A program made the position numbers and the translations under genes. Below are positions 9,201 through 43,917 of a DNA stretch of 46,575 nt, piece by piece. Origin of the DNA: Vulcanimicrobiota bacterium. GTDB taxonomy: Bacteria > Vulcanimicrobiota > Vulcanimicrobiia > Vulcanimicrobiales > Vulcanimicrobiaceae. The notes below the pieces were generated by a model that ran no database searches, was not told the DNA's origin, and saw nothing but the letters and a program-made list of their open reading frames with translations. Numbering within the stretch: the first letter of the stretch is position 1; each line of letters begins with the position of its first letter. The stretch spans positions 1 to 46,575 of the forward strand of contig PMOG01000223.1 of the NCBI GenBank assembly GCA_003161555.1, written 5' to 3'.

Positions 9201-10802
9201 ATGAGAGTGCGTGCGGCCGGAGTTTTGATGGTGTCGCTGGCCGCTGCGGTGGTCGGCGCTGGATGCAGCGGCTCGGGCGGTTCGGCAGTAGTCGCTCGGC
9301 CAACCGCAGCGCCGTCCGTTTCGGCAAGCCCGACCTCGAGCAGTCAAAGCGTGAGCGTTGGCGGGTCGGTAGCACCGTTCACGCTGGGCCCCATTGCTTC
9401 GGGGGTCGGGTTGAGTGGCCAGTTCCCCGTTACAGCATCCGGGAGCGGGACGATCCTCGTTACCCTCACGTCCTCGCAGCCGGGATCGACGACAACGCTG
9501 CAGTCAATGCGAAATCGCCGCATCGACGACATCGGAACGACGAACATAAACCCGATTGCCTTTATTATTTTTAGCCCGACTTCGATCTTTGACTTTAATT
9601 CGTTTCCTCAACTGACGTTCACGCTCCCAGCCGGGATTTCGGCGCCGAATGGCTATTGGCTAGCGGTCGAAGATGTATCAGATCTAAGCAACGGTTGGAT
9701 CGTCCTTGCGGGACCGGTTCAGCCTTCAGGTGGATCGGTCAATTTCCCAGGCGCCGTCAGGGTATTCACGTTCACGGGGGCCAGCGCATACGTTATCGCG
9801 CTCTTCGCGCCGGGCGGAACGTATCCGGCTCCATCTCCGACCCCAACGCCGACCCCAACGCCGGCACCAACGCCGAGTCCCACGCTAACGCCCACTCCCG
9901 GTCCATCAGCATCGCATACACCCACAATCACCGAATACACGGTCCCGACCGCCAATGCCGGTCCCTGGCTTATCACCACCGGTCCGGATGGGGCGCTCTG
10001 GTTCACGGAATACGTGACCGGCCAGATCGGTCGCGTGACGACTTCCGGTGCATTCACCGAATACCCGACTCCGGCGGGCGGCGCGCCAAATGCCATCACC
10101 ACGGGTCCGGACGGCGCCCTCTGGTACACGGACCGCGGCAACACGATCGGTCGGATGACCACCTCCGCCGTGTTCAGCTCGTACACGGTCCCGACGGGGC
10201 GCAGTTCGCCTTACGGCATCACCTCGGGTCCGGATGGTGCGCTCTGGTTCACGGAATACGGAGCCGGCAAGATCGGTCGCGTGAACACCTCCGGCGGGTT
10301 CAACGAATACGCGATCCCGACCGCGCAGACCAATCCGGAAGGCATCACCGCGGGCCCCGATGGCGCCCTCTGGTTCACGGAAAGCAACGTTGCCATCGTC
10401 GCCAATAAGATCGGCCGGGTGACCACCTCGGGCGCCGTTACCGAATACGCGACCCCGACCGCGAGCAGTCTTGTTGGCATCACGACGGGTCCGGACGGGG
10501 CTCTCTGGTTCACGGAGTATACAGCTAGCAAGATCGGTCGGGTGACCACCTCGGGCGCCGTCACCGAATACGCGACTCCAACCGCGAACGCCGCTCCCTT
10601 CTACATCGCGGCGGGTCCGGACGGGGCTCTCTGGTTCACGGAAAACAACAGCAACAAGATCGGTCGGGTGACCACCTCCGGTGCGATCACCGAATACCCG
10701 GTCCCGAGCGGCGGCAGCACCATGGGCATCACCGCGGGTCCCGACGGTGCCCTCTGGTTCACGGAAGAAGGCTTCAATAAGATCGGCCGGGTTGCTCCGT
10801 AG
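9201..10802 (+). CDS. Vgb-like seven-repeat beta-propeller lipoprotein
   Basis: The 533-residue product starts with a signal peptide and lipobox (VVGAGC, Cys22). A beta domain follows (about residues 50-210), then a Pro/Thr linker (residues 212-245), then seven repeats of 37-46 residues with the core GPDGALWFTE-x(4-9)-IGR-x-T-T-S-G-x-x-TEY-x-x-P. This matches the virginiamycin B lyase (Vgb) propeller repeat, and seven repeats make a complete seven-bladed ring. Histidines, needed for catalysis in the characterised streptogramin lyase, are essentially absent from the repeats, so antibiotic-lyase activity is unlikely; an extracellular binding role fits better. Repeat identity at DNA level is high, consistent with recent internal duplication. 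Confidence 0.8.
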   Translation: MRVRAAGVLMVSLAAAVVGAGCSGSGGSAVVARPTAAPSVSASPTSSSQSVSVGGSVAPFTLGPIASGVGLSGQFPVTASGSGTILVTLTSSQPGSTTTLQSMRNRRIDDIGTTNINPIAFIIFSPTSIFDFNSFPQLTFTLPAGISAPNGYWLAVEDVSDLSNGWIVLAGPVQPSGGSVNFPGAVRVFTFTGASAYVIALFAPGGTYPAPSPTPTPTPTPAPTPSPTLTPTPGPSASHTPTITEYTVPTANAGPWLITTGPDGALWFTEYVTGQIGRVTTSGAFTEYPTPAGGAPNAITTGPDGALWYTDRGNTIGRMTTSAVFSSYTVPTGRSSPYGITSGPDGALWFTEYGAGKIGRVNTSGGFNEYAIPTAQTNPEGITAGPDGALWFTESNVAIVANKIGRVTTSGAVTEYATPTASSLVGITTGPDGALWFTEYTASKIGRVTTSGAVTEYATPTANAAPFYIAAGPDGALWFTENNSNKIGRVTTSGAITEYPVPSGGSTMGITAGPDGALWFTEEGFNKIGRVAP

Positions 10803-15260: not shown

Positions 15261-16292
15261 CTACTTCACGGCCGCGACGTCTTGCTCGCTCACAGGTCCG
15301 CCTTTATTTCCCCACGCCGCACGAACGAAGGTCGCGACCGCGGCGATGTCACCCGCCGAGAGCTGACCTTTCCACGACGGCATCATGCTGCGTCCGTGTT
15401 CGACGGTTCCGATCATGCCGGCCGGATCGCTGCTGTTGACGACCGCGTCGCCGGCCAGCGCCGGAAAGGTTCCGCGACCGCCGCCTTGGCCGTTCGCACC
15501 ATGGCAGGCCGCGCATTTTGATGCATAGATCGATGCCCCGACGGTACTCAAGACCGACGGCCCCGCGGCGGCGACTTGCTGCTCCGTCACGCCCGATGCT
15601 TTGTTCGTCCAGGCGGAGCGAACGTAGGTCGCGACGGCGGCAATATCCGCGTTCGATAACTGGCCCTTCCACGTCGGCATCCGCCCGTTATAGGTGGTGC
15701 CGTTGACAACGAGCGGGCCGGAACGCCCGTTGACGATCGTTGCGATCATGCCTTTGGGGTCGGCAGCCGCGACGTGCGGGTTACCATTCAGCGGCGGATA
15801 TGCGCTCGTTCCTTGGCCGCTGGCCTGGTGGCAGGTCGCGCAGCGAGCCGCAAAGATCTGGCTTCCGCTAAGGGCAGCGGGGTTGCGTGCGGCGGCAACC
15901 TGCTGCGTCGTTACTGCCGGCGCCCGGTTCGTCCACGCGGAACGAACGTAGGTGACCACCGCCGCGATGTCGTCGCTCGAAAGCTGATCCTTCCAGGCCG
16001 GCATCGCTCCGCTGAACGTCTTTCCGTTTACCTGTATCGGACCGCTGCGCCCGTTGAGCACGGTCAGAATCAAGCTCGCCGTGTCGGCGGCAGTAACGTC
16101 GCTGTTTCCCGCCAGCGGCGGATAGGGACCGAGCCCCGTGCCTCCGACCTGGTGGCAGGCGGCGCACTTGGACGCGAAGATCGCCTTGCCGTCCGGCGCC
16201 GCGGCGGTTGCAGCGCTGCCGCTCGTGGTCCTCAGTCCCGCGAGAAGAGCGACCACTGCGCAGGCGAGTGCGACGATCGTCCAACGGCTCAT
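15261..16292 (-). CDS. Tri-haem cytochrome c with three tandem cytochrome c domains
   Basis: From ATG 16292, which has an excellent GGAGGG ribosome-binding site, the product has 343 residues. A signal peptide (hydrophobic residues 5-20) is followed by three class-I-type cytochrome c domains of about 105 residues with CxxCH at residues 43-47 (CAACH), 151-155 (CATCH) and 260-264 (CAACH). Each domain carries a downstream Met in G-x-MP-x-WK-x-QL-x-x-x-DIAAV, the likely axial ligand. The three domains are clear internal duplicates. The protein would shuttle electrons in the periplasm. It is divergent from the CuA protein and cytochrome-porin genes, suggesting one electron-transfer cluster. Upstream in-frame codons are rejected because the signal peptide starts at this Met. 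Confidence 0.92.
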   Translation of the reverse strand: MSRWTIVALACAVVALLAGLRTTSGSAATAAAPDGKAIFASKCAACHQVGGTGLGPYPPLAGNSDVTAADTASLILTVLNGRSGPIQVNGKTFSGAMPAWKDQLSSDDIAAVVTYVRSAWTNRAPAVTTQQVAAARNPAALSGSQIFAARCATCHQASGQGTSAYPPLNGNPHVAAADPKGMIATIVNGRSGPLVVNGTTYNGRMPTWKGQLSNADIAAVATYVRSAWTNKASGVTEQQVAAAGPSVLSTVGASIYASKCAACHGANGQGGGRGTFPALAGDAVVNSSDPAGMIGTVEHGRSMMPSWKGQLSAGDIAAVATFVRAAWGNKGGPVSEQDVAAVK

Positions 16293-16469
16293 ACGTCCCT
16301 CCGGCTTTGGGCTTGGGACCAGCGCGGGCTGGGTAGTAGATACCGTTGCCTGATGCGACAGAAACGCCGGGCAACCTTGGGACGCGTGTGAAGACTCTTT
16401 CCGAGCCTCGGCTGTCGCTCTTCTCACGGTAGTCCTATCTCATCACTACGCTTGGTCCCAGGCAGCCTC

Positions 16470-16841
16470 ATGCGCAGCTCAGTCCTTTTCCTCTCGGCGG
16501 TACTGCTCATCGGTGGAGCCGCATCCCCCGGCCGGGCGGCGACCACGAAACCAACGGCGCTGCCGGTTCTGAACGTGACGGCGACGTCCGAGCAGAAGTT
16601 TTCGCCGGACCACCTGGTACTGCATGTGGGCAAGCGGCAGACGCTGCGCTTCACTTCCAGCGGCGGCGTGCACGGCGTCGCCTCGACGGATCTCGGAATT
16701 CCGGCCACGACGATCGCCCCGGGCCAGCCCGTTTCGGTCGTGGTCGTGCCGAAGAAAGCCGGCACGTACAAGATCAACTGCACGATCGTGTGCGGGCCCG
16801 GGCACGCCGACATGCTGTTGACAATCGTCGTCAAGCCATGA
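16470..16841 (+). CDS. Exported CuA-type cupredoxin (COX subunit II-like soluble domain)
   Basis: The 123-residue product has a signal peptide (cleavage near GRAA) and a single cupredoxin domain. Ligands match the binuclear CuA centre: H68 (VHGVAS), then C104-x3-C108-x3-H112-x2-M115 in CTIVCGPGHADM. This C-x3-C-x3-H-x2-M pattern is the signature of cytochrome c oxidase subunit II and nitrous-oxide reductase CuA domains. Unlike COX II there is no N-terminal transmembrane hairpin, and no COX I gene is nearby, so it is a free or loosely anchored electron carrier. Its stop overlaps the next start (ATGA), coupling it to the cytochrome-porin. A TTG at 16452 is an alternative start. Confidence 0.85.
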   Translation: MRSSVLFLSAVLLIGGAASPGRAATTKPTALPVLNVTATSEQKFSPDHLVLHVGKRQTLRFTSSGGVHGVASTDLGIPATTIAPGQPVSVVVVPKKAGTYKINCTIVCGPGHADMLLTIVVKP

Positions 16842-18001
16842 TCGTGCCGCGTCGAGTCCTGCTCGCAGTCGGCTTCGCGGCAGCGGTGACCGTCGCCGCC
16901 GCAGCGCCGGCCCTGGCGATGCCGAACTTTGCCCAAGCCTACGGCGTTCCGTGCTCCACGTGCCACACGGCGGTTCCGACGCTCAATGCCTACGGGCGTT
17001 ACATCCAGCGTTCCCAGTATGCGTATATGGACGCCGCCGTGCTCAAGAAAGCGCTCCCGCTGTGGGTCGGGTATCAGGCCCAATATGACTCGCAAGCTTC
17101 TGCGCCCGACACGCATCGCGTCGTCTGGGGGAACGTCGAAGTCCATCTCGACGGCTTAGCGGGCGACAATTGGTCGTACCACGTGCAGCAGTGGATCTGG
17201 GAAGATAGTCAGCCCGGCGGCCTCGATACCGCCTGGGTCAGCTACAACAACTTGTTCAAGCACAACGGGTACTTTGAAGTCGGCAAACTCGAGGTGCCCG
17301 CTCCTTCACCATATAGCCAGTTTTTCGAGATCGCGCCGTACGCGACTCCCGAGGTGACGGTCGGCGAGCATACCTATGAACTCGATGGAAACCGTTGGGG
17401 CGCGAAGACCGGCTATCTCAACGGCTCGGTGAGCCTCGCCGCCGCGTATGTCGGCAGCGATGCCGACCTCAACGGCGCGACCGACTTCGTACCGGCCGCC
17501 GGCAAGACGCTGCAGTATCAGGCAGCATTCATGCGCCCGAAGAATCCGTTGGAAGTCGGCATCTATGGCGCGTCGGGAACCTACCCGATCTCGGATGGAA
17601 CGACCGACCACTTCAACGCGATCGCAGGCTACCTGCAGCGTGACCCCACGCGCGGAGTGCCCGGTGTGCTGCTCGTCTATCAAACGACGCACGACGATCA
17701 TCCCAGCGCCGGAGCGACCTCAGCCGCCAACGGCCGCGACTATACGGTGGACGTATACCAGCCGATCATCAAGGACACGCTCGTCGTCGGTTTCCGGCGC
17801 GAGATGACCAGCGACGGCATGGGGACCGTCAACAACGCGAGCAACATCGACCTCACCATCCAGCTCGCGCGGTATCTCCGGCTGTTCACTGAAGCGTCGC
17901 TCGGGGGGAACAATCCCGGCAACGGTAGGAATCGCCCCGGAACCCCGGCCTGGCGTGCGTTCATCTGGTGGACGATGCCGGTCGCGAAAGCGAAGCAATA
18001 G
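16838..18001 (+). CDS. Cytochrome-porin fusion (Cyc2-like outer-membrane mono-haem protein)
   Basis: The 387-residue product has a signal peptide ending near ALA at residue 27. Immediately after it comes MPNFAQAYGVPCSTCHTAVP, with one haem c motif C39-S-T-C42-H43, followed by LNAYGRYIQ. The remaining 320 residues alternate polar and aromatic-hydrophobic residues in short strands, and the protein ends with FIWWTMPVAKAKQ; this reads as an outer-membrane beta-barrel. An N-terminal x-P-x-F-A-x-x-x-G-x-x-C-x-x-C-H-T followed by a porin is the layout of Cyc2, the Fe(II)-oxidising outer-membrane cytochrome. Other CxxCH-porins of unknown role share it, so iron oxidation is an inference. It is coupled by ATGA to the CuA gene, and a small gene follows after 1 bp. 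Confidence 0.75.
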   Translation: MIVPRRVLLAVGFAAAVTVAAAAPALAMPNFAQAYGVPCSTCHTAVPTLNAYGRYIQRSQYAYMDAAVLKKALPLWVGYQAQYDSQASAPDTHRVVWGNVEVHLDGLAGDNWSYHVQQWIWEDSQPGGLDTAWVSYNNLFKHNGYFEVGKLEVPAPSPYSQFFEIAPYATPEVTVGEHTYELDGNRWGAKTGYLNGSVSLAAAYVGSDADLNGATDFVPAAGKTLQYQAAFMRPKNPLEVGIYGASGTYPISDGTTDHFNAIAGYLQRDPTRGVPGVLLVYQTTHDDHPSAGATSAANGRDYTVDVYQPIIKDTLVVGFRREMTSDGMGTVNNASNIDLTIQLARYLRLFTEASLGGNNPGNGRNRPGTPAWRAFIWWTMPVAKAKQ

Positions 18002-18002
18002 C

Positions 18003-18479
18003 ATGGGCGACATGCGCGAATTCACCACGGTCGCCTGCCGGTTCGACGACGTCCCGGAGCGGCTGGTCGCCGCGTTCGGAGGGGCCGATACGATCCTGCC
18101 GCTGCGGGTCCGGCTGGGAGACCTCCGCATCGAACGTGATGTCGACGTTCATCTCACGCCAAGAAGCGGCTACCCGGGATACCGTCTTGTCGACATCTCG
18201 TGGAAGCCGCAAGGCGGCGGACCCTATCCGAGCTTCGCGGGCACGCTGAGTATCGCCGAGGACGCCGTCGGTTGGAGCCGGATCGAAATCTACGGGAAGT
18301 ACCGTCCCCCGTTCGGCATCGCCGGCGCAGCTTTCGACGCCGCCATCGGGCAGCGTATCGCGCACGGAACCGCGATCGAACTGCTGGCGGAGATCAAGCG
18401 TCTACTGCTCTCGGGATCCGGCCACTCGTCGTCGAACGTCGGCCCAAGTGACGTTGTCGAGCCGGTCGCGGGTCCCTAG
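18003..18479 (+). CDS. Conserved-looking cytoplasmic protein, unknown function
   Basis: The 158-residue product starts 1 bp after the stop of the cytochrome-porin gene (TAG-C-ATG), so it is very likely co-translated with it. Strands alternate with turns over residues 5-110 (REFTTVACRF, IERDVDVHLTPRSG, LSIAEDAVGWSRIEIYGKY), and a C-terminal helix (AIELLAEIKRLLL) follows. This order, a beta grip and a long final helix, is reminiscent of SRPBCC/START-like proteins, without proof. There is no signal peptide or metal motif. Its position suggests a role linked to the redox cluster, but none can be named. Confidence 0.65.
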   Translation: MGDMREFTTVACRFDDVPERLVAAFGGADTILPLRVRLGDLRIERDVDVHLTPRSGYPGYRLVDISWKPQGGGPYPSFAGTLSIAEDAVGWSRIEIYGKYRPPFGIAGAAFDAAIGQRIAHGTAIELLAEIKRLLLSGSGHSSSNVGPSDVVEPVAGP

Positions 18480-18522: not shown

Positions 18523-19038
18523 TTAAGGCCCCGGCGTTCGAGCGGCCGGAACGCTCGGCACCAGATCGATGTACGGCGTGGTCGGCTCGCGCTCGGGCGG
18601 CAAGTCGTTCGGTGCAGGGTTCCCGGCTGGACCCAGCGAGCGAATGAACCGGTAGATTGCTCGCCGGTCCGCGATGTTCAGGGCGCGCAGATCGGTCCAC
18701 TTCATCGGCGGATGGCCGGCGCGTGTCGCGACGGCATTCAGCCAATCGGCCTCGCTGGTCTCACGGAACCACAGTCGGACATTCACCGGATACGCCGTAC
18801 CCCAGGGCCCGCGAAAGCCGACCGTGCTTCCGGTCATCCATCGCGAGACGGGGAGCCGGCCGTCGCTGTCGGTCCAGCCGGGCGTATGGCATTCGTTGCA
18901 GCCTCCGTAGACCACCAAGAATCGCCCGCGGTCGAGCATGCGCTGCTGCGGGTTCGCCGGCGGTGAGGTCCCGATGCCCGCGAGGAACGCGACGGTCGCC
19001 GACAAGATCGCAATGCGCCCAAAAACAGCACGCTGCAT
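18523..19038 (-). CDS. Exported mono-haem cytochrome c
   Basis: From ATG 19038 (AAGG upstream) the 171-residue product begins with a signal peptide. QQRMLDRGRFLVVYGGCNECH follows, with a single CNECH motif near residues 47-51. The downstream region keeps features of a cytochrome c domain fused to a cytochrome-like tail (PMKWTDLRALNIADRRAIYR, a likely Met-containing axial segment, then FIRSLGPAG), as in the c-type subunits that accompany membrane dehydrogenases. It converges on the porin operon and would add a further periplasmic carrier to the cluster. In-frame codons upstream of this Met lack coding features. Confidence 0.8.
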   Translation of the reverse strand: MQRAVFGRIAILSATVAFLAGIGTSPPANPQQRMLDRGRFLVVYGGCNECHTPGWTDSDGRLPVSRWMTGSTVGFRGPWGTAYPVNVRLWFRETSEADWLNAVATRAGHPPMKWTDLRALNIADRRAIYRFIRSLGPAGNPAPNDLPPEREPTTPYIDLVPSVPAARTPGP

Positions 19039-19228
19039 TGGAGCAACCTTACGCGCGGGTGAGGCGAAACGCCTCCGGCCGCGGATCGTTGAGCCATGCT
19101 CGGACACCGAACGATTAAGTCGCCGTGAAAAGGAAACCGAGTGCTTGGCCGGCGGCGTTGGCGGCATGTAGGGTGTTCCTAGCCCCTTTTGCCCCGCATT
19201 CATTTTCACTCGGAGAGGAATCCTATCG

Positions 19229-19600
19229 ATGAGAATTCTGTTGACCGCGTTCGCATTCGCTCTCGCGTTCACGTCGGCGGCGATGCTGCCAGCCGCTGCG
19301 CAAACCGAAGAAGTGATCATTTACGGTCCGCACGGCGTGCCGCTGTACAGCGGATGGCAGCCGGCGTGGGACCGCTTTGAGTTCGACCGCCATCACGTCA
19401 TCCTCGGACGCGTTGCGGCGTTCGCGCCGTACCGTCTGCAAGTTGCCCGCCGCGACGGCGTCGTGCAGCTGATCGATCTCAAAAACGGAACCGTCATTCT
19501 ACCGACCGGCGCGACGCCCTCGCCCTCGCAGCACGTCGCCGTGATCGGCTACTACAGCAACGGCACGTTCATCGCCAACCGGGTCATTCTCCGCAACTAA
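19229..19600 (+). CDS. Small secreted protein, unknown function
   Basis: The 123-residue product has a textbook signal peptide (MRILLTAFAFALAFTSAA, cleavage after AAA-Q near residue 25) and a good GGAGAGG ribosome-binding site. The mature 98 residues look like a small beta barrel: RVAAFAPYRLQVAR, VVQLIDLKNGTVI, HVAVIGYYSNGTFIANRVIL. The final I-G-Y-Y-S-N-G-T-F-I-A-N-R-V strand pattern recalls short OB-like domains of the DUF5666 type, an uncertain match. It is not visibly in an operon. Confidence 0.7.
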   Translation: MRILLTAFAFALAFTSAAMLPAAAQTEEVIIYGPHGVPLYSGWQPAWDRFEFDRHHVILGRVAAFAPYRLQVARRDGVVQLIDLKNGTVILPTGATPSPSQHVAVIGYYSNGTFIANRVILRN

Positions 19601-24492: not shown

Positions 24493-25041
24493 CTATTGTA
24501 TCGAGTCGGCGCCGGCTTTGCAGACCGTTGCGTCCTGGTCGCCGGTCCCGCCGCTGCAGCCGAGCCCACCGATGATGATACCGTGGTCGATGAGCGGAAA
24601 GCCGCCCGGTGAGGCCACCAGCGTCGGGTCCAAGGTCGAGACGTACATGTGGCCCGTTTCGAACTGGTTATAGAACGTCCGCGTCTCGCGCCGGAAGCGC
24701 GCGGCCGTGCGCGCCTTGTTCTGCGACACCCCGATCGAACCGAGCTGCGCGCCGTCCATCCGGTAGAAGTAGATCAGATCGCCGTTCGGATCGACGACGG
24801 TGATCGCAAATCGCCAGGCCGGGTGTTGGCGCGCTGCGGACAGCACGACCCCGACGACCTGGGCGGCCCGGTCGACGCCGATCGGCGGCCCGTAGGGGAT
24901 GCCGTAGGGAATCGCGTCGGGCGTGCCTCCGGCAGGCGGCGGTGGGGGCGGCGCGGGGATCGCGGTGGGAACTTGCGCGGCGGCCTCGCCGCCGACCAGC
25001 AAAGCTCCCACGATCAGCATGGCGGTGGTGAACAGACGCAT
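24493..25041 (-). CDS. Exported GlcG/HbpS-like protein
   Basis: From ATG 25041, which has a GGGAG ribosome-binding site, the 182-residue product has a signal peptide ending near EAAAQ and a Pro-rich spacer. The GlcG/HbpS (DUF336) domain follows: ITVVDPNGDLIYFYRMDGA, SIGVSQNKARTAARFRRET, GFPLIDHGIIIGGLGCSGGT, ending DATVCKAGA. This family includes the haem-binding HbpS; the biochemical role of most members is unknown. Export fits a haem or small-ligand sensor in the periplasm. A start at 25053 (MGDTMRL) is possible but has a poorer ribosome-binding site. Confidence 0.85.
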   Translation of the reverse strand: MRLFTTAMLIVGALLVGGEAAAQVPTAIPAPPPPPPAGGTPDAIPYGIPYGPPIGVDRAAQVVGVVLSAARQHPAWRFAITVVDPNGDLIYFYRMDGAQLGSIGVSQNKARTAARFRRETRTFYNQFETGHMYVSTLDPTLVASPGGFPLIDHGIIIGGLGCSGGTGDQDATVCKAGADSIQ

Positions 25042-25219
25042 GGTATCTCCCATCGATCGCAGTTGCGGAGGGCAGTTCCGCGGGCGCTCCGACCGGCCCT
25101 CGACGAGGCGCCGTTTTGGCTCCCGCATCAGCGGGACGACCTCGAGCACCCGCCGCAACCCACGGGGGCGCCGCTACGTCGTGAGGTCAGAGTTGCCTTC
25201 GCCCAAGCGAGGTCCGCCC

Positions 25220-28200
25220 GTGCCTGAAGAGTCCCGTCAGCTCGATCTTTCAACCCTGCTGGGGCGCGTGGGGAACGCTATACGCGAGCGCGTCGGCGCG
25301 CTGCCCAACGTCCTCTCGGCGCGCTCGAAGCGGCTGCGGCCGCGGATCGCCGGCGCGACGGCGACGCCCGGGGTCTGCCCGTACTGCGCGGTCGGCTGCG
25401 GCACGACCGTCTACAGCAAGGGCAACCAGATCCTGGGCATCGAGGGAAACCCCGCTTCGCCCATCAACGGCGGCACGCTGTGTCCCAAAGGCGCCGCGAC
25501 CTTCCAACTGCACGTCAATCCGAACCGCTGGACCACGGTCAAGTACCGAGCGCCGTTTGCCAAAGCGTGGAGCGACGTGCCGTACGCCTGGGCGATGGAA
25601 CGCATCGCCCAGCGCATCAAGGACACTCGCGACCGCACCTTCCGCGAGCACGACGAGCACGGGAACCGCGTCAACCGCACGACCGCGATCGCGTCGCTCG
25701 GCGGCGCCACCCTCGACAATGAAGAAAACTACCTGATCGGCAAACTGTTCCGCAACATCGGCACGCCGTTCATCGAGAACCAGGCCCGCATTTGACATAG
25801 CGCCACGGTGCCCGGTCTGGGCACCCTCTACGGTCTGGGCGGGGCGACCACCCATCTGATGGACCTCCAGCATGCGGATCTGATCGTGATCCAGGGGTCG
25901 AACTTTGCCGAGAACCATCCGGTCGGCTTTCGCTTCGCGCTGATGGCCAAGGAGCGTGGCGCGACGATCGTACACGTCGACCCGCGCTTCACGCGCACGA
26001 GCGCCCTGGCCGACCTCTACATCCCGATCCGGTCCGGTACGGATATCGCCTTCACCGGCGGTCTGATCAACTACGTGCTCTCGAACGACGCCTGGTTCAA
26101 AGAGTACGTCCTGGCCTACACGAGCGCCGCGCTGCTTGTAGATCCGGAGTTTCGCGACACCGAAGAACTCGACGGCATGTTCAGCGGCTACGATCCGGTC
26201 TCGCACACGTACGACCCGAAAACGTGGAGCTACGAGGTGGACGAATCCTCACCGCCGGCCGGCGGGGAGGGCGGCGCCTCGGTCCACGAGGGCGGCAAAC
26301 GGCCGAAGTCCGATCCGACGCTGCAGCATCCGCGCTGCGTGATCAACGTCCTCAAACGTCATTACGCGCGCTACACGCCCGAAGCGGTCGAACGCATCAC
26401 GGGCGCGCCGCAGGAGTCGTTCCTCAAGCTGGCGCGCCTGCTGATCGCCAACAGCGGCCGCGACCGCACGGCCGTCTATGCCTACGCGATGGGCTGGGCG
26501 CAGCACACGGTCGGGGTGCAGAACATCCGCGCGGCCGCAACCCTGCAGGCGCTGCTGGGGAATACGGGGCGCCCGGGCGGCGGGATCATGGCACTCCGCG
26601 GCCACGCTTCGATCCAAGGTTCGACCGACATCGCGACGCTGTACGATTCGTTCCCCGGCTACTTGAAAGTCCCGACCGTCGAGAAGAACGAAACCACGTT
26701 CGCGGCCTGGACGAAGAATCACACGATGCGCTCGGGCCGCTGGGCCGAGTACCCCGCCTTCGCTGTCTCGCTCCTCAAGGCGTGGTATGGCGAACATGCG
26801 CGGGCCGACAACGACTGGAACTTCGCCCGGCTCCCGCTCAATACCGGCGATCACTCCGATCTCCCGATGTTCTTCGCGATGAAGGACGGCGAGGTCGAAG
26901 GCCTCGTGCTGTACGGGCAAAACCCGGCGGTCGGCGGTCAGAATGCCGCTTTGCAGCGCGGCGCGATGGAACGGCTCAAGTGGCTGGTCGTGCGCGATAT
27001 CTTCGAAACCGAGAGCGCGTCGTTTTGGAAGCGCGAAGATTCCAATCCGGAAGACATCGGGACGGAGATCTTTTTCCTCCCCGTTTCCGGCGTCGCCGAG
27101 AAGGCCGGGACGTTCACCAACACGATGCGTCTGTTGCAGTTCCACGAGAAGGCCGTCGAACCGCCGGGCGAGGCACGCAGCGATCTGGGTTTCACCTACG
27201 AACTCGGGAAGCGGCTGCGCGCACTCTACGCGGACTCCACCAATCCGCTGGACCGGCCGCTTCTCGATCTGACCTGGGACTACGAAAGCGACGACCCGCA
27301 CGAACGCGAGCGCGGGGAAGCGGATGTCGAAAAAGTGATGCGCGAGATCAACGGGTTTCGGGTCGAGGGCGGCGAGCACGTGCGCGACTCGCACGACCTG
27401 CGCGACGACGGATCGACCGCCTGCGGAGCTTGGATCTATTGCGGCATGTTCCCGGAGCCGGGACGCAACCTCACCCGCCGCCGCACTGCGGATCCCGCGC
27501 AGCCGGCCGCGCCCGGATGGGGCTGGTCGTGGCCCGACAACGTGCGGACACTCTACAACCGCGCGTCGGCCGATCCGGACGGTAATCCATGGAGCGAACG
27601 CAAGCGGCTGATCTGGTGGGATGACGCCTCGGGAGCCTGGCAGGGTAATGACGTCCCGAATTTTCCGCTGCATACCGCGCCGTCATATCGCGCGCCGGCC
27701 GATGCGCGCGGCGATGCCGCGATCGACGGCGATGCCCCCTTCGTGATGCTCGAGTACGGCCGTTCCGAGATCTTCGGGGTCAACGGCACGGCCGACGGAC
27801 CGATGCCGACCCATTACGAACCGCGCGAGTCGCCGGTCGGAAACGCGCTCTATCCGAACGTGCAGTACAACCCCGTGCTCAAGGAATGGCGCCGCCGCGA
27901 CAACCCCTATCATGCGATCGGCGACCCGAAGTATCCGTACGTCGTCACCACTTACCGCCTGACCGAGCACCACGCGTCCGGTGTGATGAGCCGGCAGCTG
28001 CCGTGGTTGGCCGAGCTTCAGCCGGCCGCGTTCTGCGAGCTCTCACCCGAACTCGCGGTCGAGAAAGAGATCCGCAACGGTGACTGGGTGACGATCGAGA
28101 CGGCGCGCGGCGAGATCGAGGCGCGGGCCTTGGTCACCGGACGGATGCAGCCGTTCCGGCTGGGCGCCGGACGGTTCGTCCATCAGATCGGCATCCCGTA

Positions 28201-28558
28201 CCACTTCGGTTATAAAGGCGAAGTCCGCGGCGACTCCGCCAACGATCTCCCGCCGCTGGTGGCCGACCCGAACGTGACGATCCACGAGGGAAAGGCGTTC
28301 ACCGGCAACATCCGCCGCGGCCGCCGCAGCCCGTTCTCGTCGCGCACGCTGGAACTGGAAGTGGTGCCGCAAACGGAGCAGACGCCCTTCGGCAGCCCCG
28401 AGCGGCCGGGGCCGATGCCGGGACCGGGCGCCGAGGGCGGGATGGTCGAGCACGAGATCGTGCCGCCGGCCGAGGTCATGGAGGCAGCCCGCATCGTGCA
28501 TGCGCGCGCCGAAGCGCGCGCAGCCGAAGAAGAGGAAGGCACCGATGAGCACGCCTGA
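25220..28558 (+). CDS. fdhA: Formate dehydrogenase catalytic subunit with selenocysteine (Sec192)
   Basis: The 1112-residue product oxidises formate to CO2 at a molybdopterin-bound Mo or W centre. The N-terminal [4Fe-4S] site is C53-x2-C56-x3-C60-x27-C88. The in-frame TGA at 25793-25795 falls exactly where Sec or Cys ligates the metal (ENQARI-Sec-HSATVPGL), and the frame continues unbroken to 28558. A MopB domain follows (AGSDYV-type folds, LVTGRMQPFRLGAGRFVHQ near the C-terminus). A GTG start with AGCGAGG upstream is used. No twin-arginine signal is seen in the first 50 residues, unlike FdnG. The next gene, for the Fe-S subunit, overlaps by 14 bp. An extra Gly/Pro-rich insertion lies near residues 340-365, and an acidic tail near 1095-1110. 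Confidence 0.95.
25793..25825 (+). promoter_or_regulatory. UGA-Sec codon and bacterial SECIS hairpin in fdhA
   Basis: After TGA (25793-25795) and 11 nt, a perfect 7-bp stem (GGTGCCC at 25807-25813 with GGGCACC at 25819-25825) closes a GGTCT loop. The loop is the same GGUCU found in the E. coli fdhF SECIS that binds SelB, and the distance is typical. This hairpin explains why the UGA is read as Sec and not as stop. Confidence 0.92.
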
Positions 28559-30366: not shown

Positions 30367-31383
30367 TCAGGGCAGGTCGGCCGGCTCGGATTTGGCGCGG
30401 CCCGCATTGAGCCGCAGTCCGACGAACGATCGATACGCGACGACGATGAGCAAGCCGCCGATCGCGATCGGCAGGATCGTCTGGAGCGCCGCCGACGGAG
30501 CGGGCGCGTTGAAGATCGAGAGCCCCGTTTCGGGCGCCGGATAGCCCGGCAGCAAATACGGATAGAGCGTGGCCGCCGACGACGCGAGCAGCCCGGCTAG
30601 GAAGAGCGTCGAGGCCTCGAACACTCGTCGCGGGCGTCGTTGGAGCGCGAAAAGTGCTACCCCCGCGAGCCCGGCAGCCGAGCAGAGCGGCGCGAGCGCG
30701 ATCGCCGGCATGGCGCGCAGGTTCGGCAGCGGTGAGTGAACCGCAAACGTCGCGATCGTCACGATGGCGGTCAGGACGAGCACCAGCGGCCAGAGGATGC
30801 GCAGCGCGGCCTGGGCGCGCGCCGCCGGCGGTCCGTCGACGCGTGCCGCTACCCACGCCGCGCCATGCTGGGTCAACGCCGCGACGGCGAGCAGGCCGAC
30901 CCCGACCGCATACGGATTGAGTAAGAACGCGAACGTGCCCTGGAAGTAATGCGCGGTATCGAGCGGGACGCCGCGCACGATATTGCCCAGCGCTACCCCG
31001 AGGACGAGGATCAACAGCACGCTCGCCGCTGCAAACGTCACATCGAAGAATCCGCGCCACAGGTCGCTCGGGAACTCTCCGCGCAATTCGAAGGCGATGC
31101 CGCGGAACATCAGCAGCCAGAGCAGCACCATGAACGGCAGATAGAAACCGCTGAACGACGACGCGTAGACCTGTGGAAAGAGCGCGAACAGCGTTCCGCC
31201 CGCGGCGATGAGCCAGACCTCGTTCCCGTTCCAGTACGGACCGATGCTGTCCAGTACGGCGGCGCGCTCGGCGTCGTCACGGGCGACGAACAGATGGACC
31301 GCCCCCGCCCCCAGATCGTAGCCGTCGAGCAGCACGTAGACGCCAAGCATCGCGACCAGCAGCAGGAACGCTACGACGATCAT
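30367..31383 (-). CDS. cydB: Cytochrome bd-type quinol oxidase subunit II
   Basis: The 338-residue protein has about nine transmembrane helices and the CydB signatures: VLLDGYDLGAGAVHLFVARD near the N-terminus (the D-G-x-D-L-G-x-G motif), then IGPYWNGNEVWLIAAGGTLFALFP and FRGIAFELRGEF. CydB stabilises the haem-bearing CydA in the terminal oxidase that reduces O2 with quinol. It overlaps the end of cydA by 4 bp (ATGA), indicating translational coupling. No small CydX-like frame is evident after it. Confidence 0.94.
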   Translation of the reverse strand: MIVVAFLLLVAMLGVYVLLDGYDLGAGAVHLFVARDDAERAAVLDSIGPYWNGNEVWLIAAGGTLFALFPQVYASSFSGFYLPFMVLLWLLMFRGIAFELRGEFPSDLWRGFFDVTFAAASVLLILVLGVALGNIVRGVPLDTAHYFQGTFAFLLNPYAVGVGLLAVAALTQHGAAWVAARVDGPPAARAQAALRILWPLVLVLTAIVTIATFAVHSPLPNLRAMPAIALAPLCSAAGLAGVALFALQRRPRRVFEASTLFLAGLLASSAATLYPYLLPGYPAPETGLSIFNAPAPSAALQTILPIAIGGLLIVVAYRSFVGLRLNAGRAKSEPADLP

Positions 31384-32732
31384 GGTGCGGCCACCGCCGG
31401 CACTTCCGGTGCCCGCTCATGCTCGGGGCCGGCCGCGATCTCGCGCAGCACGATCAGGACGAACAGCACGCCGAGCAGGAAGTACATCCCGGCGAAACCC
31501 AGGGTCGTGAAGATCGTCTCGGCGGCGGCGACGTTCGGGGACGCCGACTCAGAAGTGCGAATCAGCCCGTAGACGATCCACGGTTGCCGCCCGACTTCGG
31601 TCGTCACCCAACCGGCTTCGTTTGCGATGTACGGAAACGGCATCGCCAGCATCAGCAGCCACAGCAGCCAGCGGCTGCGTTCGAGCCGGTTCAGCAGCAG
31701 CAACAGCGTCGCCAGGCCGCTCAACGCCACGAAGATCGTCCCGAGCCCCACCATGATGTGGTACGCATAGTAGGTCAGCGCGACCGGCGGACGGTCCCGA
31801 ACCGGATACGCCGCGATCCCCTTGACGCCGGCTTGAAAATTTCCGTATGCCAAAAAACTGAGCACGCCCGGAACGACGATCGGATCGATCAGCGTCTCAC
31901 GCTGCTCGTCCGGCATGCCGATGATTGCCAACGGCGCGTCCCGCTCGGAGGTGAAGAGACCTTCCGCTGCGGCGAGCTTGGCCGGCTGGTACTTGGTGAT
32001 GGCGGAGCCGTTGAGATCGCCGGTCGGAAAGATCGTCAGAATCGAAAACAGGCACGCGACCGGTACGCCTGCGCGCGCGAACAGAACGCCGTACGCGGCT
32101 TGACGTCGCGCCAGCACGTAGTACGCGCCGACACCGGCGACCAGGAAGCTTCCGGTCAGCACAGCACCGGCGATGGCGTGGACGAACTGTCCCCAGGCGT
32201 AGTCGGAAAGCAGCACTGCCGCGAGGCTCGTGAGCTTCACTTGACCGCCGGGCCCCATCGTGTAACCCACCGGATGCTGCATCCACGCATTCACCGTGAT
32301 CACGAGGAAGCCCGACAGCCAGGAACCGGCCCAAATCAGCACCGCCGACGCCACGTACAGCCGCGGTGAGACGAAGCGGCGCCCGTAGAGAAAGACGCCC
32401 AGAAAGATCGACTCCAGGAAGAACGCGAAGATGCCTTCCATCGCCAGCGGCTGGCCGATGACGGCGCCGGTTCGGGCCGAGAAGGCCGCCCAATTGGTTC
32501 CGAACTGGAACTCCATCGGGATGCCGGTCACGACCCCGATCGCGAAGTTGACCGCGAAGATCCGCCCCCAGAACCGTGCGGCCCGATCGTAGAACGGATT
32601 GCCGGTCCGCGCCGCAACGAACGTGAACCATGCAATGAACGGCGCCAGCCCCATCGTTCCGATCGGGAACAAGTAATGGAACAGGATCGTGAACGCGAAT
32701 TGGGTGCGATCGGCCAGCACCGCGTTTTCCAT
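31380..32732 (-). CDS. cydA: Cytochrome bd-type quinol oxidase subunit I
   Basis: The 450-residue haem-bearing subunit has H19 (FAFTILFHYLFPIG) and H185 (YAWGQFVHAIAGAV), matching the E. coli ligands H19 and H186. GWVTTEVGRQPWIVYG near the C-terminal half is a CydA hallmark, and M and E residues lie in its vicinity. Compared with E. coli CydA (about 522 residues) it is shorter, consistent with a short Q-loop as in the cyanide-insensitive CIO branch. It reduces O2 to water with quinol. It forms an operon with cydB. Its start is divergent from the DUF6582-like gene, with about 116 bp between. Confidence 0.95.
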   Translation of the reverse strand: MENAVLADRTQFAFTILFHYLFPIGTMGLAPFIAWFTFVAARTGNPFYDRAARFWGRIFAVNFAIGVVTGIPMEFQFGTNWAAFSARTGAVIGQPLAMEGIFAFFLESIFLGVFLYGRRFVSPRLYVASAVLIWAGSWLSGFLVITVNAWMQHPVGYTMGPGGQVKLTSLAAVLLSDYAWGQFVHAIAGAVLTGSFLVAGVGAYYVLARRQAAYGVLFARAGVPVACLFSILTIFPTGDLNGSAITKYQPAKLAAAEGLFTSERDAPLAIIGMPDEQRETLIDPIVVPGVLSFLAYGNFQAGVKGIAAYPVRDRPPVALTYYAYHIMVGLGTIFVALSGLATLLLLLNRLERSRWLLWLLMLAMPFPYIANEAGWVTTEVGRQPWIVYGLIRTSESASPNVAAAETIFTTLGFAGMYFLLGVLFVLIVLREIAAGPEHERAPEVPAVAAP

Positions 32733-41193: not shown

Positions 41194-43917
41194 ATGCGGG
41201 TGTGGGCGCTCTTCGCAACCTTGCTCGTCGGCTGGCTCGCTCTGGGCGATCGCGCCACCGAAGCGATGCGCGGCAGCCTGCCGCGGGCCGCATGCCCGAA
41301 CGCCGCGCCGGTCCCTGCCGACCTGCGCTTGCCCGCGCGCGTTCCGCCGGGCGAGCCGGTCGCGATCGAAGTGCGGCTGCTGCGTTTCCTGTCGTCCTAT
41401 GCCTACCGCGACTTGGGCTGGTGCGTCGACAAAACGGTGCGCGACACCGGACCGTACCTCGACCACGTCATGTACGGGACGCACACCGCCGTGCGCATCT
41501 ACTACTCGCCCGAGATGATGGCGTGGCTGCGCGGCGGGCGGCGCGGCGTGCCGGCCGACGGCGCGGTCATCATCAAGGAGCAGTACGGCGCGAAGCCGGC
41601 GGCGGCATTCGCCGGAGCGGGCGACGCGACGCTGCGGCCGACCGACTGGACGATCATGATCCGGCGTTCGTCGGCGTCACGCGACGGGTGGTTCTGGGCC
41701 GAAGTCTGGACGACGATGTTCGGCACCGAGCCGCCGGCGACGACGGTCGCGTATCCGAACGCCGGCTTCGGATTGTACTGCCTGCGCTGCCACGCGTCGG
41801 CCGCACGGTCGATGACCTTTTCGGCGCTCGAAAACGTGCGCGGGTTTCCCGGCGAGCCGCTGCACTACCGGATCGATGACTCCTGGCGCTTTCCGCTGCC
41901 GACGCCGGCACCGTGCGTCGAGCACGACGAACACCAGAAGAACCGCGCGCTGGCGTCCCTGGGCGCGCGCTGTGCGCCCGTCAAGCCGCAGCCGCTCGCC
42001 GTGCAGACGTTCCCGCCGGAGTCGCTCGACACCAATCTCGCGGCGGCGCATGGCACGACCGCGTTTCTGACCTCGGCGCAGTGCATGGGCTGCCACAGTG
42101 CGGCCGCGGGCGCGCCGTTCGGGCCGACGATGTGGGTAACGCCGGCGCCCGCCGCCGCTCGTCAAGCCGGACTCAACGTGTCGGAATACGGTGAATGGCG
42201 CTGGTCGCCGATGGGACTCGCCGGACGCGACCCGGTCTTCTACGCGCAGCTCCAAAGCGAGCTCGGCTACTTGCGCACGTTCAAGCCGGCGCGCGTCGCC
42301 CGACGCCTGGAGACCCAGATCGACAACACCTGCCTGCACTGTCACGGCGCGATGGGTCAGCGCACGCTCGAAGCTCGCCGGCCCAGCGCGCGATTCGATC
42401 CGGCGATCGTCTTCGACGGCGTTGCCTCGCACCCGGATTTCGCGCTCGGGGGCTTGGCGCGCGACGGCGTCAGCTGCACGATCTGCCATCGTGCGGTGGC
42501 GACCACGACCCCGCCCGGAGAAGCGCCGCTCGCGCACTTCCTGGCCACTTCGATCAACGGCGATTTCCGGACCGGACCGCCCGACCGTCTCGACGGCCCG
42601 TTCAAGACGAGCGACGTGGCGGCGCTACCGATGAAGAACGCGCTCGCGATCAAGCCCGCCGGCAGCGACTACGTGCTCTCCTCGCAGCTCTGCGGCAGCT
42701 GCCACACGATCCGCTTGCCGGTCGTCGACGCACCCGCGGGCGCCCCCGCGCACGACATCGAGCAAGCCACCTATGTCGAGTGGCTCAACAGCGCGTACCA
42801 GACCGAGTATCGGCCCGGGCCCAAGAACGCGTCGTGCGTCGCCTGCCATATGCCGGCCGGCATCACCGACCCCGAACGCGGCGTGGCCGTCACCCACCTC
42901 GCGTCGCGCATCGCGCTGGTCCAGGATGACACCTATCCGGCGACCAGCAATGCCGCGCCGGCCGACCAGCTGCACGTCCGCTATCGCGAACGCGGGTACC
43001 GCCGCCACGAGCTGCTCGGCTTGAACGCCTTTCTGCTCGAAACGTTCCGGCAGCATCCCGACGTGCTGGGCGTGCGGACGGCCGACTACATGTCGGGCTC
43101 GACGACCGACCTGACCGACGCGATCGGCCACATCGTGCAGCAGGCGCGCGCGAAGACGGCGCGCGTCGCGGTGCGCGCGCAGGTCGAGGGACGCACGCTG
43201 GCGGCCGAGGTGGAAATCACGAACCTGACCGGACACCGCTTTCCGAGCGGCGTCGGTTTCCGGCGCGCCTTTGTCGAGTTCGCAGCCTACGACGGTGAGG
43301 CCGCGACGCCGTTCTTCATCTCGGGTGCAACCGACCGCCGCGGCCGCCTCGTCGGCGCGGACGGCGTGGTGCTGCCGAGCGAATCGTTCGCGCGGGGTGC
43401 GGACGGACGCGAGCAGTACCAGCCGCACTTCGACCGCGCGCAGCCGGTGACCAGCGCGGCCCAAGTCCAGATCTTCGAAGAGCTGACGCAAGACCGCACG
43501 CGGCACTTCACTACCAGCTTCATCCGGCGCGACCACGAGGTCAAAGACAACCGGATTCTGCCGCTGGGATGGCGCCCCGGCGGTCCGGCGCCGGGCGCGA
43601 TCCCACGCGAGTTTCTGCTCGCGACCTATCCGAAGGGGGGCGCTGCGAAAGACCCGGACTATCGCGATGGGAAAGGGCATGCCGTCGTGGCGTACCGCAT
43701 CCTCATTCCTGCGGGTATCGACCCTGCGCGCGTCCGCGTGAAAGCGACGCTCTGGTATCAGTCCTGGGCGCCGTACTTTCTGGCCGCGCGTGCGGCAGCA
43801 CGCGACGACGCGGCAGTGCGGCTCCGCGCGCTGACCGGGAATCTCGACCTCGACGGAACCGAACTCGAGCACTGGAAGCTGCGCGTCGGCGGCGCGACCT
43901 GGAGCGCCTCACGATGA
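41194..43917 (+). CDS. Exported six-haem cytochrome c with P460-like N-terminal domain
   Basis: The 907-residue product has a signal peptide (residues 1-20). Residues 45-215 resemble the cytochrome P460 domain: RIYYSPEMMAWLRGG, then ADGAVIIKEQYGA, then DWTIMIRRSSASRDGWFWAE and YCLRCHASAARSMTF. In total six CxxCH motifs lie at residues 196-200, 297-301, 380-384, 428-432, 500-504 and 548-552. A beta-rich C-terminal domain (about 630-900) begins near VEITNLTGHRFPSGVGFRRA, a pattern seen in extracellular multihaem cytochromes. The function is not predictable; P460 enzymes oxidise hydroxylamine, but the crosslinking Lys is not securely identified here. A DUF4239-like gene follows after 13 bp. Confidence 0.85.
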   Translation: MRVWALFATLLVGWLALGDRATEAMRGSLPRAACPNAAPVPADLRLPARVPPGEPVAIEVRLLRFLSSYAYRDLGWCVDKTVRDTGPYLDHVMYGTHTAVRIYYSPEMMAWLRGGRRGVPADGAVIIKEQYGAKPAAAFAGAGDATLRPTDWTIMIRRSSASRDGWFWAEVWTTMFGTEPPATTVAYPNAGFGLYCLRCHASAARSMTFSALENVRGFPGEPLHYRIDDSWRFPLPTPAPCVEHDEHQKNRALASLGARCAPVKPQPLAVQTFPPESLDTNLAAAHGTTAFLTSAQCMGCHSAAAGAPFGPTMWVTPAPAAARQAGLNVSEYGEWRWSPMGLAGRDPVFYAQLQSELGYLRTFKPARVARRLETQIDNTCLHCHGAMGQRTLEARRPSARFDPAIVFDGVASHPDFALGGLARDGVSCTICHRAVATTTPPGEAPLAHFLATSINGDFRTGPPDRLDGPFKTSDVAALPMKNALAIKPAGSDYVLSSQLCGSCHTIRLPVVDAPAGAPAHDIEQATYVEWLNSAYQTEYRPGPKNASCVACHMPAGITDPERGVAVTHLASRIALVQDDTYPATSNAAPADQLHVRYRERGYRRHELLGLNAFLLETFRQHPDVLGVRTADYMSGSTTDLTDAIGHIVQQARAKTARVAVRAQVEGRTLAAEVEITNLTGHRFPSGVGFRRAFVEFAAYDGEAATPFFISGATDRRGRLVGADGVVLPSESFARGADGREQYQPHFDRAQPVTSAAQVQIFEELTQDRTRHFTTSFIRRDHEVKDNRILPLGWRPGGPAPGAIPREFLLATYPKGGAAKDPDYRDGKGHAVVAYRILIPAGIDPARVRVKATLWYQSWAPYFLAARAAARDDAAVRLRALTGNLDLDGTELEHWKLRVGGATWSASR

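Follow-up and report, generated by a model that had tools for sequence, protein, structure and literature searches.

A Cyc2-like porin-cytochrome gene paired with a gene for a soluble CuA protein in Eremiobacteria: a putative outer-membrane electron-uptake module

What might an outer-membrane cytochrome be doing when its gene begins inside the stop codon of a gene for a small copper protein? The stretch of DNA analyzed here (the window, 46,575 nucleotides) is contig C1 of an Eremiobacterota MAG from an uncultured soil bacterium (2.93 Mb, 73.5% complete), and its near relatives carry the name Candidatus Eremiobacterota. The interval 16470–18001 holds two genes, not one: the ATG of a porin-cytochrome gene shares bases with the TGA that ends the CuA gene (ATGA; CCATGATCG), in agreement with the initial annotation, which had the porin gene beginning within the stop of a small exported protein. 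Linkage to other genes was assessed in 40 wide loci, each covering up to 8 kb on either side. The features that matter for the argument are as follows.

15261..16427, minus strand: ORF of a three-heme cytochrome c, class I-type; likely start ATG at 16292; divergent from the pair
16470..16841, plus strand: CuA gene; 123 residues (P0002), putatively exported soluble cupredoxin with ligands H/C/C/H/M
16838..18001, plus strand: porin-cytochrome gene; 387 residues (P0001), signal peptide, one CSTCH, predicted 16-strand barrel
16952..16966, plus strand: heme-binding motif CSTCH, residues 39–43 of P0001, assigned from sequence
18003..18479, plus strand: conserved neighbor, 158 residues, no Pfam match; family present in 16/40 wide loci
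18523..19320, minus strand: monoheme CxxCH protein (GGCNECHTPGW), no Pfam match

Conservation of the gene pair

Some homologue was found in 117 of the 149 genomes of the phylum. Among the best 92 CuA matches, at least 62, from 59 genomes, directly precede a porin match in the same orientation, and 10 further ones have a porin within 5 kb; these counts are lower bounds, as contigs break and the counts were drawn from the matches listed. Since the pair recurs throughout the class with identical order and tight spacing, it is not a chance arrangement, and the CuA partner for which a synteny check had been proposed is kept across related genomes. A directly upstream CuA gene is the hallmark of the Eremiobacteria porin clade to which P0001 belongs; none of the 26 paralogue loci retrieved has one. 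A sizeable minority of porins also lack an adjoining CuA gene. A divergent branch at ~30% identity (genus code g12) has it as well, so the pairing may predate the closest clade. Two loci, L096 (genome G106) and L109 (genome G102), carry tandem CuA-porin pairs downstream of ba3 coxBA, and the tandem porins differ from each other, with 44% and 33% identity to P0001.

The porin-cytochrome and its relation to Cyc2

The signal peptide of P0001, judged by eye, is directly followed by the single CSTCH (ALA-MPNFAQAYGVPCSTCH), the arrangement at the mature N-terminus that had been noticed initially. C39, C42 and H43, to which a heme would be attached, are invariant in all 48 relatives, as are P47 and L49 (CSTCHTAVPTL). 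Met28, His115 and His178 are likewise kept in 48/48 and His103 in 47/48, making these four residues candidate sixth heme ligands, and the clade also has a conserved HxQQW stretch.

Pfam and NCBIfam scans of P0001 returned no match, and a PDB sequence search returned no meaningful one. AlphaFold was run on P0001 both complete and stripped of its signal peptide, and both models had 16 long strands after the heme segment, at moderate confidence (pTM 0.60 and 0.62, mean pLDDT 57–58). In Foldseek at E < 0.001, one model matched 149 solved structures and the other 192, and the best listed matches were the general porins OmpF, OmpC, Omp32 and OprP (E ~1e-8). OprP is among the structures used to model Cyc2, for which Keffer et al. 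described 16 strands along with similarity to OprO/OprP (PMC8406198). P0001 is therefore predicted to be a 16-strand outer-membrane barrel. The initial annotation had described a barrel-like body and proposed a check for 16 strands with a heme plug; the strands appeared in both predictions, whereas the heme segment was modeled with low confidence and poorly placed. That P0001 is instead some other heme-bearing periplasmic β protein seems very improbable to us: moderate model confidence and the lack of a porin family among Pfam matches would leave room for it, but two models with 16 long strands, structure matches whose listed members are porins, and a length and layout like those of Cyc2 all argue against it.

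Is it then a Cyc2, the fused monoheme cytochrome-porin of clusters 1–3? The published test asks for AXPXFAR[Q/K][T/Y] before CXXCH and PXL after it (PMC8406198). P0001 reads AMPNFAQAY-GVP-CSTCH-TAV-PTL, with the frame of the motif (AxPxFA..Y) and a PXL four residues past CXXCH present and R[Q/K] absent. It further resembles Cyc2 in having a signal peptide, a single CxxCH near the mature N-terminus of a putatively exported protein, a length of 387 residues (signal peptide included) against a minimum of 365, and a predicted 16-strand porin fold. Sequence comparison points to distant homology. As comparators we used six plasmid-borne Cyc2-type proteins, from Methylocystis, Paraburkholderia, Caballeronia, Ideonella, Acidithiobacillus and Polymorphobacter. 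P0001 and the Methylocystis protein matched by tblastn at E 4e-4, a reverse search with a Cyc2-type protein returned P0001 as the best match in its genome (E 1.7e-11), and profile-profile comparison with Cyc2-motif proteins gave E 3e-9, with the heme segment aligning best.

Strict PxFAR[Q/K][T/Y] occurs in none of the 48 clade members scanned, all of which lack R[Q/K], and on this ground we rejected filing P0001 as Cyc2; among the six proteobacterial comparator rows scanned, only three have the strict motif. In a quick maximum-likelihood tree, the clade of P0001, sampled with 35 members, came out as a single group on a long stem (SH-aLRT 100), beside other Eremiobacteria paralogues, while the six plasmid proteins grouped apart (SH-aLRT 99), a placement that leans against Cyc2 but is to be read with the caveats that these comparators are not biochemically characterized Cyc2 proteins and that long branches were flagged. 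The soluble CuA partner is a further difference. The Cyc2 identity first assigned to this protein thus holds for layout and distant homology but not for the defining motif: P0001 may work like Cyc2, and the tree places it in a separate, strongly supported clade of the class Eremiobacteria. Screens that rely on the strict motif overlook this clade.

Two paralogues were seen in passing. One in Eremiobacteria (L068, 1453–2586) has the strict Cyc2 motif (ALPIFARQY) and no adjoining CuA gene. The other lies in the window's own genome (L002, contig C257:5814–6467); it has 369 residues, reads AIPYFAHEYG...CQKCH, belongs to another Eremiobacteria subfamily and has no CuA neighbor.

The soluble CuA protein and its link to a ba3-type oxidase

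All five ligands of the CuA site could be located in P0002 (HGVAS...CTIVCGPGHADM), as the initial reading of a full ligand set had it. Their spacing, Hx35Cx3Cx3Hx2M, follows the canonical pattern Hx34Cx3Cx3Hx2M (PMC6189053) with one residue more; in a set of 98 pattern-bearing ORFs that includes CoxB and duplicate loci, 81 have x35 and 17 have x34. None of the five ligands (two His, two Cys and one Met) varies among the 57 soluble relatives. The N-terminus of P0002 is a hydrophobic signal region, Pfam placed Cupredoxin_1 above and COX2 slightly below the cut-off, and the solved structures closest to it are Thermus-type CuA domains from cytochrome oxidases (E ~1e-6). Soluble relatives share with the CuA domain of ba3 oxidase subunit II the H/C/C/H/M ligand set and, where BLAST aligns them to a ba3 CoxB, 31–41% identity; unlike that subunit they have no membrane anchor beyond the signal peptide and lack two features present in all 13 CoxB compared, a Glu between the two Cys and a PGWV stretch. 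It is a reasonable inference from these sequences that the soluble protein was derived from the CuA domain of CoxB through loss of the membrane helix. PmoD/AmoD are likewise periplasmic CuA proteins outside an oxidase, but PmoD assembles its site from different ligands, between the two subunits of a homodimer, and has a membrane helix at its C-terminus (PMC6189053).

Which protein could take electrons from such a carrier? Of the 40 wide loci, 12 (families f1 and f3) have a ba3 coxA gene no more than 8 kb away, two of them in the window's own genus (L089 and L090), and the other 28 have no oxidase gene within that distance. Compared with a random expectation of 0.6–2% per locus, the binomial P is ~1e-11 or less, a rough figure given that the loci are related. 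The order coxB-coxA(ba3)-CuA-porin was found in several lineages; in five loci (L093, L104, L112, L121 and L126) coxA, CuA and porin are contiguous on one strand, with coxB adjoining coxA. The oxidase is assigned to the ba3 type because CoxA and CoxB of L126 match Thermus ba3 (E 1e-114 to subunit I and E 4e-38, respectively). The window's genome has ba3 coxBA on a separate contig (C37), 66% and 61% identical to the linked set of the relatives, and a second oxidase on contig C60. Lying outside the window, the oxidase genes were missed by the initial annotation.

This arrangement recalls the rus operon of Acidithiobacillus, cyc2-cyc1-cup-coxBACD-rus (PMC10654088), in which an outer-membrane cytochrome-porin, a periplasmic copper protein and a terminal oxidase are also encoded together. 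Here, in contrast, the carrier is a dinuclear CuA protein instead of rusticyanin/AcoP, the oxidase is ba3 instead of aa3, and the oxidase linkage is found in only part of the class. Linkage to coxBA and the 31–41% identity to ba3 CoxB would also suit a device for copper supply, in which the porin admits copper, the heme sets its redox state and the CuA protein loads subunit II of the ba3 oxidase. We regard this as improbable: a full CuA site, invariant in all soluble relatives, is what an electron carrier needs, and where the genes are contiguous, their order resembles that of the rus operon for electron transfer.

The ba3-type terminal oxidase is a stronger partner of the pair than the three-heme cytochrome, which the initial annotation had made part of the route. 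The divergent ORF does contain three CxxCH motifs, as annotated (CAACH, CATCH and CAACH, in three Cytochrom_C domains by Pfam), and a Met motif of class I type comes after each of them (MPAWK, MPTWK and MPSWK). Its occurrence in only 9/40 wide loci, mainly in the window's genus and in a branch where CuA is often non-adjoining, led us to reject it as a core part; it is a lineage-specific accessory. In other genomes, relatives of the 158-residue neighbor occur near CuA-porin or beside ba3 coxBA, several times beside coxB. The monoheme protein at 18523–19320 has counterparts of ~61% identity close to coxB in L096 and L109 and is a possible further electron carrier.

Elsewhere in the window, a formate dehydrogenase alpha subunit (24923–28558, plus strand) is split into two ORFs by an in-frame TGA at 25793–25795 (IENQARI-TGA-HSATVPGLG), so the enzyme is probably a selenocysteine protein. 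It is followed by a Fer4 subunit (28500) and an NrfD-like subunit (29327), and subunits II and I of a cytochrome bd oxidase (30367–32732, minus strand) lie beside this set. In a 907-residue ORF (41194–43917, plus strand), a cytochrome P460 domain close to the N-terminus precedes a long tail with no Pfam match, and the gene at 9201–10802 (plus strand) encodes an exported repeat protein that resembles virginiamycin B lyase and has a linker rich in Pro and Thr. RuBisCO was set aside as support for autotrophy, the match being weak (58 bits).

A putative route for electron uptake

We propose, with a probability of roughly 55%, that the pair is an outer-membrane electron-uptake module. A small external reductant, most likely dissolved or weakly complexed Fe2+, would give one electron to the single heme, which would sit at the periplasmic end of the 16-strand barrel. 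From the heme it would move to the soluble CuA protein, whose gene directly precedes that of the porin, and this protein would reduce the CuA of the ba3-type oxidase, either directly or through the three-heme cytochrome, which may be an extra carrier in some lineages; the oxidase would then reduce O2. The path from barrel heme through CuA to oxidase is drawn by analogy with the rus operon, and the gene pairing is compatible with CuA as the acceptor of the porin's electrons without proving it.

Our first guess for the donor is Fe2+, since Cyc2 is built in this way, as a 16-strand barrel holding a single heme. P0001 lacks the strict Cyc2 motif, so its donor may also be something else. The same inward conduit could be fed by Mn(II), reduced humics or phenolics, or another soluble reductant of acidic soils, an alternative that we consider unlikely. 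A distinct clade on a long stem, with its own conserved Met28, His103, His115, His178 and HxQQW, could differ from Cyc2 in substrate, and several relatives are labeled palsa isolates. However, the Cyc2-type single-heme porins characterized to date oxidize Fe2+ (PMC8406198), and no donor-specific enzyme is linked to the pair.

Outward flow, with electrons disposed of to an extracellular acceptor, appears highly improbable. There is precedent in other porin-cytochrome systems, such as MtrCAB, which moves electrons outward, and cytochrome bd and formate dehydrogenase are also encoded in the window, but a single heme in the barrel and the genomic linkage to O2-reducing oxidases speak for inward flow. 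More tentatively, and with the odds leaning slightly against so broad a claim, the uptake route may be class-wide in Eremiobacteria, with a native, free CuA shuttle, related to oxidase subunit II but without its membrane helix, carrying electrons from an outer-membrane heme-porin to the CuA of ba3.

A Cyc2-like gene is already known from the phylum: one was assigned by BLAST and tree in an acid-mine Eremiobacterota MAG (MAG 15; PMC8357290) and may belong to the same family as P0001. The text of that paper does not mention cupredoxin, rusticyanin or a ba3 oxidase with this gene, and no cupredoxin is mentioned in the Vulcanimicrobium paper (PMC9758169). In the portions of the literature consulted on extracellular electron transfer in Eremiobacterota, or on Cyc2 together with cupredoxin and ba3, we did not find the pair described. 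As far as these sources reach, what is new is the pairing of a Cyc2-like porin with a soluble canonical CuA protein and ba3 genes.

Little is known about what feeds electrons to the Eremiobacterota, most of which are uncultured, and the pair offers a concrete, testable pathway in at least 59 genomes. If the proposal is true, CuA and ba3 would be a second design for the role that rusticyanin and aa3 play. The soluble protein would then also be, to our knowledge, the first canonical CuA protein to work in soluble form as a free carrier.
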